Origin: Oscillospiraceae bacterium
GTDB taxonomy: Bacteria; Bacillota_A; Clostridia; Oscillospirales; Oscillospiraceae
Direction: 5' to 3'
DNA length: 9,114 nucleotides
Assembly: GCA_017381835.1 (NCBI GenBank)
Contig: JAFOBK010000164.1
Span: 1 to 9,114, forward strand
Positions 190 through 5,802 of the stretch are shown one piece after another (the first letter of the stretch is position 1; every line of letters begins with the position of its first letter). The notes below the pieces were generated by a model. The model was not told the DNA's origin, did not search any database, and saw nothing but the letters and a program-made list of their open reading frames with translations. Position numbers and translations under genes: made by a program.

Positions 190-1677
190 ATGCAAATCGA
201 AATGCGTGGCATCGACAAGGCCTTTGGTACCAACCAGGTTTTGAAAAATGCCGGATTTGAACTTCGGGATGGCGAGATCCATGCGCTGATGGGCGAAAAT
301 GGCGCAGGTAAATCCACCCTGATGAAAATCCTGACCGGTGTGTATACACGGGATGCAGGTACTGTCATAGTAGACGGACAGGAAGTCGTCTACAAAAGTC
401 CTCAGGAAGCAGAAAAGGCCGGCATCGTGTTCATCTATCAGGAACTGAACGTGCTGTTTGACCTGACCGTTGAGGAAAACCTCTTCATGGGCAAGGAAAT
501 CACCAAGGGCTTCGGTGTCTGCGACAAGAAGGCTATGCGTGCAAAGGCCCAGGAGGTCATGGACAAGATGGGTGTTAACATCCCCGTCAACGCAGTTATG
601 TCCGACTTGTCCGTCGGACAGCAGCAGATGGTAGAAATCTGCAAGGCACTGATGGTAGATGCCAAGGTGCTGATCATGGACGAACCCACCGCCGCTCTGA
701 CCGAGTCCGAGACCCAGGTTCTGTTTGAGGTTATCGAGTCTCTGAAGGCAAAGGGTGTCTCCATTGTTTACATTTCCCACAGAATGGAAGAAATCTTCCA
801 GCTGTGCGACCGTATCACCATTCTGCGCGACGGTCAGTATGTGGGCACTGAGAATATCAAGGACATCACCATGGACGGTGTTGTGCAGATGATGATCGGC
901 CGTGAGATCGGCGAGCGTTATCCCCAGCGCAACGTACAGATTGGTGAGGAAGTCATCCGCGTTGAAGGCCTGACCCACGAGAAGATGTTCAAGGATGTAA
1001 ACTTCTCCGTAAGAGCCGGTGAGGTTCTGGGTGTTTCCGGTCTGATGGGTGCAGGTCGTACCGAGATCATGCAGGCTATCTTCGGCAACCTGCCTATCGT
1101 CTCCGGCAAGGTCTTCATCGAGGGCAAGGAAGTACATATCAAGAATCCCAAGCAGGCTATCGAGGCCGGCATCGGTTTCATTACCGAAGACCGCAAGACC
1201 GAGGGCCTTCTGCTGGAAAAGAGCATTGCTGAGAATATCGAGCTGTGCAACCTGGGCAAGGTCTCCAAGCGGAGTGTTCTGTCCAAGTCCAAGGGCGCCG
1301 CTCTGGTAAAGAAGGGCATTGAAGAATTCCGCATTCGCTGCTTCGGTCCCGACCACGAGTGCAACAACCTGTCCGGCGGTAATCAGCAGAAGGTTGTTCT
1401 GGCAAAGTGGATCTACACCGATCCCAAGATCCTGATTCTGGACGAGCCCACCAGAGGCGTGGACATCGGCGCCAAGAAGGAAATTTACAGCGTTATCAAT
1501 GATCTGGCCGCAAAGGGCGTGGCTGTGATTATGGTTTCCTCGGAACTGCCTGAAGTTCTGGGCATGAGCGATCGGATCATGGTCGTCCATGAGGGACATG
1601 TAACCGGTATTATTGACGGTAAGACTGCAGATCAGGCAAAAGTTATGACACTCGCTACGGGAGGAAGTTTGGTATGA
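190..1677 (+). CDS. rbsA: Ribose ABC importer, ATP-binding protein RbsA
   Basis: This 495-residue protein is a double nucleotide-binding ATPase on the cytoplasmic face of the ribose importer and energises the RbsC permease. Domain 1 has Walker A G-E-N-G-A-G-K-S-T at residues 35-43, signature L-S-V-G-Q-Q-Q near 140-146, Walker B with D164-E165 and switch His197. Domain 2 has the degenerate P-loop G-L-M-G-A-G-R-T-E at 284-292, signature L-S-G-G-N-Q-Q-K at 394-401 and Walker B near 414-420. The switch His is missing in domain 2, where the motif reads V-S-S-E. One canonical and one degenerate site is normal for sugar importers of the RbsA/MglA/XylG type, and the length is typical. The rbsD/rbsC/rbsB/rbsK context makes ribose the expected substrate. 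The ATG at 190 fits the family N-terminus. The stop overlaps the rbsC start (ATGA), implying translational coupling. Confidence 0.96.
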   Translation: MQIEMRGIDKAFGTNQVLKNAGFELRDGEIHALMGENGAGKSTLMKILTGVYTRDAGTVIVDGQEVVYKSPQEAEKAGIVFIYQELNVLFDLTVEENLFMGKEITKGFGVCDKKAMRAKAQEVMDKMGVNIPVNAVMSDLSVGQQQMVEICKALMVDAKVLIMDEPTAALTESETQVLFEVIESLKAKGVSIVYISHRMEEIFQLCDRITILRDGQYVGTENIKDITMDGVVQMMIGREIGERYPQRNVQIGEEVIRVEGLTHEKMFKDVNFSVRAGEVLGVSGLMGAGRTEIMQAIFGNLPIVSGKVFIEGKEVHIKNPKQAIEAGIGFITEDRKTEGLLLEKSIAENIELCNLGKVSKRSVLSKSKGAALVKKGIEEFRIRCFGPDHECNNLSGGNQQKVVLAKWIYTDPKILILDEPTRGVDIGAKKEIYSVINDLAAKGVAVIMVSSELPEVLGMSDRIMVVHEGHVTGIIDGKTADQAKVMTLATGGSLV

Positions 1678-2645
1678 GACTCGATACAAAGAAATTAGGC
1701 GCTAAAATTAGCGAATATGCTGTGTTTATTGCACTGGTACTGCTGGTCGTGGCAATGATGATCTTCGCTGACGGCTTTGCAACCGGTTCTAACCTGCTGA
1801 ACCTGCTGCGTCAGGCAGCATTTAACGGTCTGATCGCCTTCGGTATGACCCTGGTCATTCTGTCTGACGGCATCGACCTGTCCGTTGGCTCCGTGTTCGC
1901 ACTGGCAGCCATTATCTGTGCTGAGCTGATCATGGCCGGTATGAACACCGTCCTGGCAGTTCTGATCGCGCTGGTCGCCGGTACTGCTCTGGGTCTGGTC
2001 AGCGGCTTCCTGGTGGCAAAGTGCCGCCTGCAGGCATTCATCGCAACCCTGATCACCATGACCGCTTACCGCGGCGTGGCTTACATCATCACTGACGGCC
2101 GTCCCATCTCCCGTCTGGCTGAGAGCGCAACCAGCGGTGCCTTCTTCTTCAAGGCTATGGGTAAGGGCAACCTGCTGATCTTCGAAACCATCAAGATCCC
2201 CATTCCCGCACTGATCCTGATCATCGCTTTCGTAGTTGTTTGGTTCGTTCTGACCAAGACCACTTTCGGCCGCCGCATCTACGCTACCGGTTCCAACGCA
2301 AAGTGCGCAAAGCTGGTTGGTGTTGACACCGCTAAGATCAAGATGGCATGCTACGGCATTTCCGGTTTCCTGGCTTCTCTGGCAGGCCTGCTGATGTGCT
2401 CCCGTCTGAATGCTGCTCAGCCCACCTTCGGCGACGGCTATGAACTGGATGCAATCGCTGCAACCGCTCTGGGCGGCACTTCCATGTCCGGCGGCCGCGG
2501 TAAGATCACCGGCACCATCGCAGGTGTTCTGATCATTGCTGTTCTGAACAACGGTATGAACATCATGAACATTTCTTCCTACTACCAGCAGGTCGTTAAG
2601 GCTGTGGTCATTCTGGTGGCAGTTCTGTCCGACCGCAAGAGATAA
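1674..2645 (+). CDS. rbsC: Ribose ABC importer, permease RbsC
   Basis: This 323-residue, very hydrophobic protein belongs to the branched-chain/sugar permease family (BPD_transp_2). It is expected to act as a membrane homodimer forming the ribose channel. Hydrophobic segments are visible at about residues 15-32, 48-63, 72-90, 93-115, 121-140, 176-194, 225-242, 280-292 and 306-318. Family landmarks are the I-D-L-S-V-G-S motif at 67-73, the cytoplasmic coupling loop around 203-217 (A-T-G-S-N-A-K-C-A-K-L-V-G-V) that contacts the ATPase, and the L-G-G-T-S-M-S-G-G-R-G segment at 266-276. The start codon overlaps the rbsA stop by 4 nt. A GGGAGG site at 1659-1664, inside the rbsA end, serves as its ribosome binding site with 9 nt spacing. 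Length and motifs are ordinary, and nothing suggests a change to suit the double-domain binding protein downstream. Confidence 0.95.
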   Translation: MRLDTKKLGAKISEYAVFIALVLLVVAMMIFADGFATGSNLLNLLRQAAFNGLIAFGMTLVILSDGIDLSVGSVFALAAIICAELIMAGMNTVLAVLIALVAGTALGLVSGFLVAKCRLQAFIATLITMTAYRGVAYIITDGRPISRLAESATSGAFFFKAMGKGNLLIFETIKIPIPALILIIAFVVVWFVLTKTTFGRRIYATGSNAKCAKLVGVDTAKIKMACYGISGFLASLAGLLMCSRLNAAQPTFGDGYELDAIAATALGGTSMSGGRGKITGTIAGVLIIAVLNNGMNIMNISSYYQQVVKAVVILVAVLSDRKR

Positions 2646-2647
2646 GC

Positions 2648-2654
2648 AAGGAGG
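2648..2654 (+). promoter_or_regulatory. Ribosome binding site of rbsB
   Basis: AAGGAGG lies 10 nt before the ATG at 2665, inside the 19-nt rbsC-rbsB gap. It is a near-perfect anti-16S match and fits the high expression expected of a binding protein. Confidence 0.75.
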
Positions 2655-2664
2655 CAATTACATT

Positions 2665-4443
2665 ATGAAAAAAGTATTCGCACTGATTCTGTGCCTGGCA
2701 ATGATGATTTCCATGGCCGGTTGTGTCAGAATCGTTATCGACGGTGAAGAATCCTCCGTCCAGGTTTCCGCAAACGGCACTATCGGTCTGTCCGTTTCCA
2801 CTCAGAACAACCCCTTCTTCGTCTCCCTGGTAGAAGGCGCTGAGAAGCAGGCTGCCGCACTGGGTGTCAAGATTACTGTTGCTGACGCAGGCGATGACGC
2901 CGCAAAGCAGACCTCCGATATCGAAGACCTGGTTGCTTCCGGTATCTCCGTTCTGATCGTTAACCCCGTTGACTCCGACGCTGTTACCGGCGCTGTGGAG
3001 TTTGCTAAGTCCAAGGGCGTTAAGGTTATCTCCGTCGACCGTGCTGTCAACGGCACCGAGATCGAGTGCCAGATCGCATCTGACAACGTACTGGGCGCTG
3101 AGCTGGCTACCCAGTTCATCGTAGACACCCTGGGCGAAGGCGCAGTTGTCGCTGAGCTGGAAGGTGTTACCGGCGCATCCGCTGCCATCGACCGCTCTCA
3201 GGGCTTCCACAACATCGCAGACGCTAAGCTGCAGGTTGTTGCCCGCCAGACCGCTAACTTTGCCCGTGCTGAAGGCATGTCCGTCATGGAAAACATGCTG
3301 CAGGCTAACCCCGACATCCAGGCTGTCTTCGCCGCTAACGACGAAATGGCTCTGGGCGCAATGGAAGCTATCACCGGTGCCGGCAAGGACATCATGGTTG
3401 TTGGCTTCGACGCTACCGACGACGCTATCGCATCCATCAAGGCTGGCCAGATGGCTGGTACCATTGCACAGCAGCCTGCTCTGATCGGCTCTACCGCTGT
3501 TACCAACGCACTGAAGCTGATCAACGGCGAGACCATCGAAAAGTCCATCCCCGTTGAAGTTACCCTGGTTACCATTGACAATGTTGAGACCTTTGCAGAG
3601 CTGGAAGAGGCTACCGCTGTTGTGGGCGACGGCTCCATCGGCCTGGCTGTTTCCACTCAGAACAACCCCTTCTTCGTTACCCTGGTTGAGGGTGCTCAGA
3701 AGGCAGCTGACGCTGCAGGTGTTAAGCTGACTGTTGCTGACGCAGGCGATGACGCTGCTAAGCAGACCGCTGACATCGAAGACCTGGTTGCTTCCGGCAT
3801 CTCCGTTCTGATCGTTAACCCTGTTGACTCCGACGCTGTTACCGGCGCTGTAGAGTTTGCTAAGTCTAAGGGCGTTAAGGTCATCGCTGTTGACCGCGCT
3901 GTCAACGGCACCGAGATCGAATGCCAGATCGCATCCGATAACGTTCTGGGCGCTGAGCTGGCTACCCAGTTCATCGTAGACACTCTGGGCGAAGGCGCAA
4001 TCGTTGCTGAGCTGGAAGGTGTCACCGGCGCATCCGCTGCCATCGACCGCAGCACCGGTTTCCACAACATCGCAGACGCTAAGCTGCAGGTTGTTGCCCG
4101 TCAGACCGCTAACTTTGCCCGTGCTGAAGGCATGTCCGTCATGGAAAACATGCTGCAGGCTAACCCCGATATCCAGGGTGTCTTCGCTGCTAACGACGAA
4201 ATGGCACTGGGCGCAATGGAAGCTATCTCCGGCGCAGGCAAGAATATTATGGTTGTCGGCTTCGACGCTACCGACGATGCCATCGAGTCTATCAAGGCTG
4301 GCCAGATGGCTGGTACCATCGCACAGCAGCCCGACCTGATCGGTTCCACCGCTGTGGAGTACGCTCTGAAGCTGATCGCTGGTGAGAGCATTCCCAAGTC
4401 TGTTCCTGTTGAAGTTACCCTGATCACCAAGGACAACGCCTAA
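2665..4443 (+). CDS. rbsB: Tandem double-domain ribose-binding lipoprotein (RbsB-RbsB)
   Basis: This 592-residue surface lipoprotein delivers ribose to RbsC. Usual RbsB is about 300 residues. Residues 1-20 form a lipoprotein signal (lipobox M-A-G-C, Cys20). Residues 38-306 are one full type I periplasmic-binding domain, 307-322 an acidic linker, and 323-591 a second full domain. The two align without gaps at offset 285, with 25 differences in 269 positions (about 91% identical). By alignment to E. coli RbsB, domain 1 keeps all contact residues: N49, F51, F52, N100, D125, R126, R177, F199, N225, D249 and Q269. Domain 2 keeps the same set at +285 (N334 to Q554). Both should therefore bind ribose, which is inference. 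Most changes lie in the first 47 and last 70 residues of each domain. Codon use is strongly biased, implying high expression. Confidence 0.93.
   Translation: MKKVFALILCLAMMISMAGCVRIVIDGEESSVQVSANGTIGLSVSTQNNPFFVSLVEGAEKQAAALGVKITVADAGDDAAKQTSDIEDLVASGISVLIVNPVDSDAVTGAVEFAKSKGVKVISVDRAVNGTEIECQIASDNVLGAELATQFIVDTLGEGAVVAELEGVTGASAAIDRSQGFHNIADAKLQVVARQTANFARAEGMSVMENMLQANPDIQAVFAANDEMALGAMEAITGAGKDIMVVGFDATDDAIASIKAGQMAGTIAQQPALIGSTAVTNALKLINGETIEKSIPVEVTLVTIDNVETFAELEEATAVVGDGSIGLAVSTQNNPFFVTLVEGAQKAADAAGVKLTVADAGDDAAKQTADIEDLVASGISVLIVNPVDSDAVTGAVEFAKSKGVKVIAVDRAVNGTEIECQIASDNVLGAELATQFIVDTLGEGAIVAELEGVTGASAAIDRSTGFHNIADAKLQVVARQTANFARAEGMSVMENMLQANPDIQGVFAANDEMALGAMEAISGAGKNIMVVGFDATDDAIESIKAGQMAGTIAQQPDLIGSTAVEYALKLIAGESIPKSVPVEVTLITKDNA
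2776..3582 (+). repeat. Tandem repeat unit 1 within rbsB
   Basis: This is the first copy of an 807-nt in-frame coding repeat (residues 38-306 of RbsB). Compared with unit 2 at 3631-4437 (offset 855 nt, no indels), a hand count gives about 99 nucleotide differences, or roughly 88% identity. They comprise 25 amino acid changes and about 48 silent codon changes. The longest exact block I checked is 68 nt (3247-3314). Confidence 0.93.
3631..4437 (+). repeat. Tandem repeat unit 2 within rbsB
   Basis: This is the second copy of the 807-nt in-frame repeat (residues 323-591). It is separated from unit 1 by 48 nt encoding the linker. It ends two codons before the rbsB stop, so the duplication covers one whole mature binding domain. 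Confidence 0.93.
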
Positions 4444-4452
4444 TACAACTGA

Positions 4453-4474
4453 CCGGAGGGCTTATGCCCTCCGG
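4453..4474 (+). promoter_or_regulatory. Intercistronic hairpin between rbsB and rbsK
   Basis: CCGGAGGG (4453-4460) and CCCTCCGG (4467-4474) form a perfect 8-bp stem. The first loop pair (C4461-G4466) extends it to 9 bp with a TTAT tetraloop. No T-run follows, so it is not a standard intrinsic terminator. It lies 9 nt after the rbsB stop and 4 nt before the rbsK ribosome binding site. By analogy with hairpins after binding-protein genes in other transport operons, it probably protects the rbsB message from 3' decay or lowers rbsK expression. That role is inference. Confidence 0.75.
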
Positions 4475-4490
4475 AAATAGGAGAATTCTT

Positions 4491-5378
4491 ATGAGAGTAT
4501 TGAATATCGGTTCTCTGAACATCGACTACGTCTACTCCGTAGACCATATCATTCTGCCCGGTGAAACCGAGGCTACCGGCTCCCGGAACACCTTCCTGGG
4601 CGGCAAGGGCATGAACCAGTCCTGCGCGCTGGCAAAGGCCGGTGTGGAAGTCTACCACGGCGGTATGATCGGCGAGGACGGCAAGATGTTCCTGGATGCC
4701 TGCAAGGAGTACGGCGTCCATGATGAATTCATCAAGATCGTGGACGGTCCTTCCGGCCACACCGTCATCCAGATCGACAAGAATGCCCAGAACAGCATTC
4801 TGCTCTTTGGCGGCGCTAACCAGAAGATGACCAAGGAGTTTATCGACGATGTACTGAGCCACTTCACTTCTGATGACATTCTGCTGCTGCAGAACGAAGT
4901 GAACCTGCTGCCCTACATTGTGGATACCGCTTATGAAAAGGGTATGCAGATCGCACTGAATCCCTCTCCCTTCAATGAGAAGCTGGATGCAGTGGATATG
5001 AAGAAGATCAGCATTTTCCTGCTGAACGAAGTGGAAGGTTTCCAGCTCACTGGTGAGAAGGAAACCGAGGCAATCATTGCCAAGCTCCGTGAACTGTTCC
5101 CCCATGCCCGGATCATGCTGACCCTGGGTAAGGATGGCGCAGTATATGTGGATGCTGAGCAGAAGATCTTCCAGCCCATCTTCAAGGTCAAGGCAGTGGA
5201 TACCACTGCAGCCGGCGATACCTTCACCGGTTACTTCCTGGCAGGTCTTGCTGAGGGTCTTCCCATGGAGCAGGTGCTGCGGATGAGCGCCAAGGCATCT
5301 TCCATTGCTGTTACCCGTGAGGGTGCAGTTCCCTCCATCCCTTACCGTGCAGAAGTTCTGGAAGCTCTGCAGGCATAA
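4491..5378 (+). CDS. rbsK: Ribokinase RbsK
   Basis: This 295-residue PfkB-family sugar kinase phosphorylates D-ribose at O5 with ATP in the cytoplasm, feeding the pentose phosphate pathway. Visible motifs are the N-terminal substrate motif G-G-K-G-M-N-Q-S at residues 37-44, N-P-S-P at 157-160, N-E-V-E-G at 179-183, the nucleotide-site T-L-G-K-D-G-A at 211-217 and the C-terminal signature D-T-T-A-A-G-D-T-F at 237-245 with catalytic Asp243. The tail A-V-T-R-E-G-A-V-P-S resembles the monovalent-cation and adenine region of E. coli RbsK. The start is set at 4491 because AGGAG at 4479-4483 sits 7 nt upstream and the protein then begins M-R-V-L-N-I-G-S-L-N like its family. An in-frame ATG at 4464 falls in the hairpin loop and would add nine unrelated residues. 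It is the last gene of the rbs operon. Confidence 0.95.
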   Translation: MRVLNIGSLNIDYVYSVDHIILPGETEATGSRNTFLGGKGMNQSCALAKAGVEVYHGGMIGEDGKMFLDACKEYGVHDEFIKIVDGPSGHTVIQIDKNAQNSILLFGGANQKMTKEFIDDVLSHFTSDDILLLQNEVNLLPYIVDTAYEKGMQIALNPSPFNEKLDAVDMKKISIFLLNEVEGFQLTGEKETEAIIAKLRELFPHARIMLTLGKDGAVYVDAEQKIFQPIFKVKAVDTTAAGDTFTGYFLAGLAEGLPMEQVLRMSAKASSIAVTREGAVPSIPYRAEVLEALQA

Positions 5379-5406: not shown

Positions 5407-5452
5407 AATAGCCGCAAACGGATTTTCTCCGTTTGCGGCTATTGATCTTTTT
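5407..5452 (+). terminator. Intrinsic terminator of the rbs operon
   Basis: A perfect 16-bp stem pairs 5407-5422 (AATAGCCGCAAACGGA) with 5428-5443 across a TTTTC loop. TTTTT follows at 5448-5452. It starts 28 nt after the rbsK stop. An A-run at 5405-5408 on the upstream side could give weak activity on the minus strand too. Confidence 0.92.
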
Positions 5453-5544: not shown

Positions 5545-5802
5545 TCAGCCTTCGCTGACCACAGCAGAGTAAGCTGTTTTGACACTGACACCGGGGAGGT
5601 TGCCGATCTTGCCGGACATAGAGGAGATGGCATCCTGGGGCGCATCCAGGGCAATGGAGATAATATTGATTTTCTTCTCCCGATAGGGGATGCCCATTCT
5701 GCCGATGATATACTGTCCGTTTTCATGCAAAATCTGATTGAGTTTCTCCACACTCTCCGGATTTTCCACGATAATACTCATAACTGCCACTCTGGTTGCC
5801 AT
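5545..5802 (-). CDS. TM1266-family putative regulator of the iron-only hydrogenase system
   Basis: This 85-residue protein resembles the TM1266 family, small ACT/ferredoxin-like-fold proteins annotated as putative regulators of the [FeFe]-hydrogenase system. Matching features are the N-terminal I-V-E-N at 11-14, the core Y-I-I-G-R-M-G-I-P-Y-R at 31-41, G-K-I-G-N-L at 64-69 and the G-V-S-V-K end of the domain at 71-75. Length is typical. The ATG at 5802 is preceded by AGGAGG (5811-5816 on this strand) at 8 nt spacing. The gene stands alone with its own promoter and terminator. No hydrogenase or hydE/F/G maturation gene is visible within the window, although family members are often found near those genes. 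The family's molecular action is poorly known; no DNA-binding domain is apparent, so it may act through a ligand or protein partner. The family call is by recall of conserved motifs, not by search. Confidence 0.85.
   Translation of the reverse strand: MATRVAVMSIIVENPESVEKLNQILHENGQYIIGRMGIPYREKKINIISIALDAPQDAISSMSGKIGNLPGVSVKTAYSAVVSEG

Follow-up and report, generated by a model that had tools for sequence, protein, structure and literature searches.

Why does a ribose importer carry two complete binding domains behind a single lipid anchor, and what keeps such a gene in place? This question is raised by a gene in a stretch of 9,114 nucleotides from an Oscillospiraceae bacterium that probably lives in an animal gut (contig JAFOBK010000164.1; hereafter, the window), for which a preliminary description had claimed an intact, free-standing double ribose-binding protein (RbsB) of a kind it did not know from the literature. 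In line with this claim, a full-text literature search, with most subscription journals outside it, yielded no description of a free-standing tandem RbsB. According to PMC9045158, substrate-binding proteins (SBPs) are generally present in large excess over their translocators; in Clostridia the excess is reached by SBP genes that are placed first, with internal terminators, and most 3′ SBP genes are without the stem-loops. The closest known case of tandem domains is GlnPQ of Lactococcus lactis, where two unlike substrate-binding domains (SBDs) are fused to the permease and act independently, and where longer linkers slow transport, presumably through a longer delivery time (PMC8025302). In addition, OpuA comprises two SBDs per transporter (PMC11065425).

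Two RbsB domains on one lipid anchor

The gene extends on the plus strand from position 2665 to 4443 (ATG to TAA) and encodes a protein of 592 amino acids, which is matched in two stretches by the Pfam family Peripla_BP_4 and in two stretches by the NCBIfam RbsB model NF007936, the best model for both halves. The protein starts with a single signal peptide (MKKVFALILCLAMMISMAGC, 2665–2724) that ends in the lipobox SMAGC (residues 16–20), and the putatively lipidated Cys20 (codon 2722–2724) is invariant in an alignment of 49 proteins. Residues 2–17 form the sole predicted helix anchor, so that the protein has what marks a lipoprotein SBP, namely a lipobox with its Cys and no other anchor. As judged by the alignment of the two copies, the contact residues and the predicted fold, domain 1 comprises residues 38–306 (2776–3582) and domain 2 residues 323–591 (3631–4437). 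They are joined by a linker of 16 residues, five of them acidic and none basic (VETFAELEEATAVVGD, residues 307–322, 3583–3630). These borders and the acidic linker agree with the preliminary description.

In the computed alignment, the eleven residues that line up with what we take to be the ribose-contacting residues in RbsB from E. coli are present in both domains, as had been stated before, and they are identical. Overall, the domains share 244 of 269 amino acids (90.7%) and 708 of 807 nucleotides (87.7%), with a longest identical run of 68 nucleotides. Third codon positions account for 66 of the 99 nucleotide differences, and the codon differences comprise 48 synonymous and 25 non-synonymous ones (dN 0.062, dS 0.398), a sign of constraint. 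The 25 amino acid differences are concentrated in the outer parts of the domain, with 9 in the first 47 residues and 10 in the last 51 but only 6 in the middle 171 (19/25; binomial p = 8e-5).

The whole protein scores 589.3 bits against the RbsB equivalog model (cut-off 337), whereas the halves scored singly yield 304.2 and 297.3 bits; thus, the protein passes the cut-off because the two domain scores sum. In an AlphaFold2 model based on the 49-sequence alignment, both heads are predicted to fold (mean pLDDT 82.6) and the linker to be disordered (pLDDT <50 at residues 312–319), and the overall pTM is low (0.48), as expected for heads that are free to move. Among the best 50 structure matches, which comprise RbsB-like and other sugar-binding proteins that each align over one head, the nearest solved chain is 2ioy (54% identical in the Foldseek alignment), and none of these 50 is a chain with two RbsB domains.

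Directly after the lipidated Cys, we observed a conserved pattern, C-x-I-[TV]-IDGE (2722–2751), in a segment that is predicted to be disordered. It is present in all 18 two-domain loci, in all 3 three-domain loci and in 22 of the 54 loci with a single domain.

The rbs operon around the gene

The gene is encoded on the plus strand together with the 3′-end of rbsD for D-ribose pyranase (1–159; PF05025 RbsD_FucU, 56.7 bits, gathering threshold 25), rbsA for a double ABC ATPase (190–1677; two ABC_tran stretches), rbsC for the permease (1674–2645; BPD_transp_2) and an rbsK-like gene for a PfkB sugar kinase (4491–5378), giving the order rbsD-A-C-B-K. For rbsA, rbsC and the kinase the ribose models are the best matches, but all scores remain below the curated NCBIfam cut-offs (RbsA, 588 bits vs 745; ribose permease, 325.5 vs 398; ribokinase, 221.5 vs 299.65), so ribose is the likeliest substrate of the importer as judged by these models, though not a proven one. 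An intrinsic-terminator-like hairpin lies 3′ of the operon (5407–5443, plus strand; 16 pairs, the longest stem), although the number of terminator-like sites found, four, compares with 3.1 expected by chance. A TM1266-like small gene on the minus strand (5545–5802), encoding a putative iron-only hydrogenase system regulator, adjoins the 3′-end of the operon.

The gap of 19 nucleotides between rbsC and rbsB contains a ribosome-binding site read from the sequence (AAGGAGG, 2648–2654, plus strand). Between positions 1500 and 5600, three promoter-like sites were found, with 2.5 expected by chance; the only one on the plus strand is at the start of rbsC, and none is near the rbsC-rbsB gap. This gap measures 9–27 nucleotides in 18 two-domain loci, and in one-domain relatives it has a median of 31 nucleotides (range 9–172, n = 49). 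A sequence search for a solved relative of RbsC that could serve as a docking structure found none.

The fold, the rbsD-A-C-B-K operon and all eleven contacts are those of RbsB of the RbsABC (CUT2) importer, from which the present protein differs in having two (in relatives one to four) complete domains per polypeptide. With GlnPQ it shares two SBDs in tandem, a flexible linker (14 residues there) and structurally independent heads (PMC8025302). The GlnPQ domains, however, belong to another SBP class, are fused to the permease and differ in ligand and affinity, whereas here the permease is the separate gene at 1674–2645, the two domains have identical contacts in the alignment, and a separate lipoprotein bears equivalent, concertedly evolving heads in variable number. 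Likewise, OpuA provides one transporter with two similar heads for a single substrate (PMC11065425), but there each head belongs to a permease chain of its own, whereas in the window one anchor bears both heads and the permease is a separate protein.

Comparison of the window with the related locus L008 (window positions 190–5378) revealed DNA identities of 88.6% for rbsA, 87.5% for rbsC and 87.3% for rbsK, and of 77.7 and 77.9% for the two rbsB domains; the domains of L008 group with those of L004. Judging from these identities, rbsB may have undergone an exchange that did not include the rest of the operon.

Copy number of the RbsB domain in relatives

Protein searches were performed with the window's protein (best 120 of 1149 matches) and with a three-domain relative (best 120 of 1707), with length limits that kept out most one-domain relatives. 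The matches listed, window included, comprise 173 distinct proteins, 109 with two, 63 with three and one with four domains (P0122, 1172 amino acids); as these are the best 120 of 1149 and 1707 matches, and of 2427 in a further search described below, the counts are no frequencies. Five of the 63 three-domain proteins belong to a second family. Among the matches listed, 392 of 396 domains keep all eleven ribose contacts, and 592-residue homologues with 87–100% identity are found on many contigs. Linkers across the family vary in sequence and comprise 14–30 residues.

A genome scan yielded 80 loci, of which L001–L009 and L011–L014 encode a two-domain and L010 a three-domain form, most others being one-domain. 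In six loci (L015–L019 and L043) the gene is cut by a contig end. These six form pairs in three MAGs, each with the gene split over two contigs (L015 + L017, L016 + L019 and L018 + L043); since these contigs end inside the repeat, the true copy number there may be higher. Among 75 deduplicated, uncut loci with rbsC, 54 have one, 18 two and 3 three domains, and near the window the gene order is constant around all three forms. Two-domain forms hence recur in the same operon slot of relatives, a database check that the preliminary description had proposed, and the window's double gene is, by these alignments, one state of a series of one, two, three and four copies, which that description had missed.

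The series varies over short distances. In one genus-level set, 4 of 16 genomes have a close match (one two-domain, two three-domain, one cut; forms of 594, 886 and 880 amino acids); in a further set there are nine among 37 genomes (eight two-domain, one cut) and in another three among 26 (two two-domain, one one-domain). Family-wide surveys around the genomes of L001 and L005 gave matches in 11 of 299 (E <= 1e-100) and 9 of 396 genomes, respectively, mostly one-domain. On a tree of rbsA and rbsC from 57 loci, copy number requires at least eight changes, and the nearest rows to the window, L008 and L001, are both two-domain; this tree and the domain tree below are quick searches, and the former contains a single very long row, L039, as well as two thin ones, L032 and L042. 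In 11 genomes searched as a whole, eight further, weaker RbsB-like matches lie in frames of 311–418 amino acids, too short for two domains, which indicates that in these genomes the doubling is specific to the rbs gene.

Concerted evolution of the domains

Among the matches listed, the domains of two-domain proteins are about 0.90 identical within the protein at every distance, while same-position identity between proteins drops from 0.97 to 0.79 with distance. In the most distant bin (283 pairs), same-position and cross-position identity amount to 0.794 and 0.792, compared with 0.895 within the protein; another distant bin (3747 pairs) yields 0.824 vs 0.816 for same and cross positions. These patterns of identity indicate that the domains within a gene evolve in concert. 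For close relatives among these matches (same-position identity >0.9), within-protein identity lies below same-position identity, suggesting that equalisation is slower than recent speciation. Across 13 representatives, hardly any position signal is seen except in the last part of the domain (domain window 235–261, columns 253 and 265), with a weaker signal at column 83, and no position-specific signature at the contact site appears among the top columns.

At the nucleotide level, within-gene dS has a mean of 0.48 (27 pairs) and between-genome dS amounts to 1.69 where computable, which it was not in 95 of 210 pairs; within-gene dN/dS is about 0.15. Conversion-like tracts, that is, runs without synonymous difference longer than expected by chance, were detected in 5 of 27 within-gene pairs vs 1 of 77 between-genome controls, and in 7 of 21 pairs from Chloroflexota, one of which (L173) was compared in the wrong register and is to be disregarded. 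No such tract was found in the window's own pair (p = 0.46). In L119, domains 2 and 3 show 5 differences over 720 nucleotides and 15 in the last 87. In the domain tree, the three domains of L010 form one group, and the two domains of a gene are sisters in 5 of 18 two-domain genes (the window, L004, L008, L011 and L125). Among close relatives, first domains pair with first domains, and positions pair across genomes in L002/L003, L005/L118/L119, L006/L007/L009/L127, L012/L123/L124 and L013/L014. Homogenisation is accordingly slow or episodic.

A second family in Chloroflexota

The best 120 of 2427 matches of a search with P0110, together with relatives from the search with the window's protein, define a second family of 115 proteins, also missed by the preliminary description. 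Among the matches listed, 66 are two-domain and 48 three-domain proteins, and one has a full-length and a truncated match; all eleven contacts are intact in 276 of 277 domains. The median within-protein identity of the two-domain proteins listed is 0.954, and same-position identity falls to 0.70. Where an organism is named, it belongs to the Chloroflexota, Anaerolineae or Anaerolineales (P0217, P0265, P0196), and a survey of the class to which a Chloroflexi genome belongs gave a match in 31 of 396 genomes (E <= 1e-100). Of 20 regions analysed, 12 contain a two-domain gene, 3 a three-domain gene and 4 a one-domain gene, and in one the gene is cut. The gene order is often rbsD-C-B-A-C.

Like the window's protein, members of this family combine several RbsB domains (two or three) in which the contacts are conserved, and they lie in rbs gene clusters. 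In contrast, their domains are about 50% identical to those of the window, the anchor is a lipobox or a transmembrane segment, the gene order is rbsC-rbsB-rbsA-rbsC, and the linkers are unrelated or absent, being short, unlike those of Bacillota, and missing in L172, L173 and L176. Taken together, the second family holds the same architecture, to all appearances independently.

Among the three-domain proteins listed (P0110 and relatives), 33 of 48 apparently carry an N-terminal transmembrane helix instead of a lipid, as judged by a crude pattern, and by the same kind of pattern the anchored proteins have a cytoplasmic Pro/Glu-rich tail.

Three of the 12 two-domain regions, L169–L171, encode other sugar SBPs that are 37–43% identical to the ribose query P0265 and in which the contact positions are changed, as judged by eye. 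In these Chloroflexota-class genomes, the tandem, near-identical SBPs lie beside ABC genes of their own. Identical runs between the repeats measure 95, 463 and 617 nucleotides in L169–L171 and 797 in L168; the long runs in these four loci may reflect recent exchange, recent duplication or assembly error.

Junctions and origins

At the main Bacillota junction, the linker ends in [IVT][VTA]G[ND] in 228 of 228 cases among the matches listed. At domain column 265, V is found in 226 of 228 internal domains and I in 140 of 168 terminal domains listed, which indicates that the end adjoining the linker keeps its own type. This common junction speaks against full independence of every double. Conversely, a single ancestral duplication for all forms was discarded, because the linker of L013 and L014 differs from the main Bacillota linker and Chloroflexota have either an unrelated linker or none. 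These differences render more than one origin likelier, and the unrelated linkers of Chloroflexota suggest that the tandem architecture arose more than once.

MAGs titled Fibrobacter contain a two-domain rbsB in L013 and L014 and a one-domain rbsB in L031 in the same operon, a pattern that could reflect either a separate duplication or a contraction. A simple hybrid origin of the L031 gene, by exchange between the two heads of L014, is not supported, as this gene is about 80% identical to either head without a clean switch.

Discussion

We propose, with an even chance of being right, that the window's protein is a ribose receptor array in which one lipid anchor carries two equivalent heads on a flexible linker and serves the RbsA-RbsC translocator of its own operon. 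The architecture, the operon, the intact contacts, the forms with one to four copies and the concerted evolution can be read from the sequences. In such an array, each head would bind ribose alone and either could dock on RbsC in turn. Recombination between the near-identical repeats would raise or lower the number of heads, and the same exchange would keep them alike. The gain would be more ribose-loaded heads per anchor and per translocator; a doubled capacity appears the likeliest of the functional ideas in the preliminary description. Moreover, rbsB follows rbsC too closely to have its own promoter, for which an extra head inside the protein might compensate: given the short rbsC-rbsB gap and the 3′ location of the SBP gene, doubling within the protein is an attractive alternative. 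However, the gaps of one-domain relatives are also short, so that a missing promoter alone does not call for a second head, and the majority of such operons manage with a single domain, which counts against a benefit of the array. The absence of a conversion tract from the window's own pair and the small share of sister domains in the domain tree also speak against the proposal.

The main rival, which we regard as unlikely but far from negligible, is neutral drift, in which a chance tandem duplication is carried along, copies are gained, lost and homogenised by recombination, and fitness does not depend on how many heads there are. The eight or more changes on the rbsA-rbsC tree, the change even within one genus-level set and the persistence of one-domain forms among close relatives fit this reading, and homogenisation alone could account in part for the intact copies; yet both heads keep the contacts almost without exception, within-gene dN/dS is low, and two-domain forms persist across many lineages and also occur in the second family. 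Distinctly less probable is a hand-off in cis, whose point would not be capacity: while one head docks on the permease, the partner tethered to it would be loading or waiting, so that the local concentration at the translocator rises. This has been argued for the tethered domains of GlnPQ and OpuA, is compatible with two intact heads and the predicted flexible linker, and would agree with the slower transport seen with longer GlnPQ linkers. The array is, however, separate from the permease and thus not kept at a single translocator by the tether, and the linker varies in length and sequence up to its complete absence in some Chloroflexota.

That the heads are specialised for different sugars, or for ribose at different affinities as suggested by the preliminary description, is improbable to a high degree. 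The outer clustering of the amino acid differences and the GlnPQ precedent may be quoted in its favour, but the contacts do not differ between the heads, no positional signature marks the contact site, and concerted evolution works against specialisation; the two-affinity reading was therefore abandoned. We attach still less weight to the idea that additional heads carry the receptor outward through a thick cell wall. Heads strung from an N-terminal anchor would suit it, and both families occur in single-membrane groups, Bacillota and Chloroflexota; but ribose is small and diffuses through the wall, and no division of labour is evident between the outer and inner heads, which are nearly identical. 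Finally, repeats do trouble assemblies, as the six cut loci attest, but a one-domain gene doubled by misassembly is next to inconceivable here, since 99 of 807 nucleotides differ, no identical run exceeds 68 nucleotides and the architecture recurs on many contigs, including long contigs of relatives (L014, 650 kb; L005, 147 kb).

Extending the receptor array, we tentatively suggest, at somewhat less than even probability, that head number acts as an evolvable gain control. Unequal exchange would change the number of heads, conversion would equalise them, and lineages would thereby tune the ratio of heads to translocators in the protein and not by transcription, independently in Bacillota and Chloroflexota and reaching other sugar SBPs of the same transporter class (L169–L171).

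For the analysis of such genes, our data imply two warnings: short-read assemblies break or miscount them (6 of 80 loci cut), and summed scores can carry a tandem protein past the cut-off of a family although each domain by itself falls short of it. The domains also represent a case of concerted evolution inside a single bacterial gene that keeps receptor heads equal. How one operon yields far more binding protein than translocator is an open question (PMC9045158). The natural series of one to four heads in one operon slot offers a direct test of whether head number sets uptake, and head number may thus be a way to tune sugar capture.
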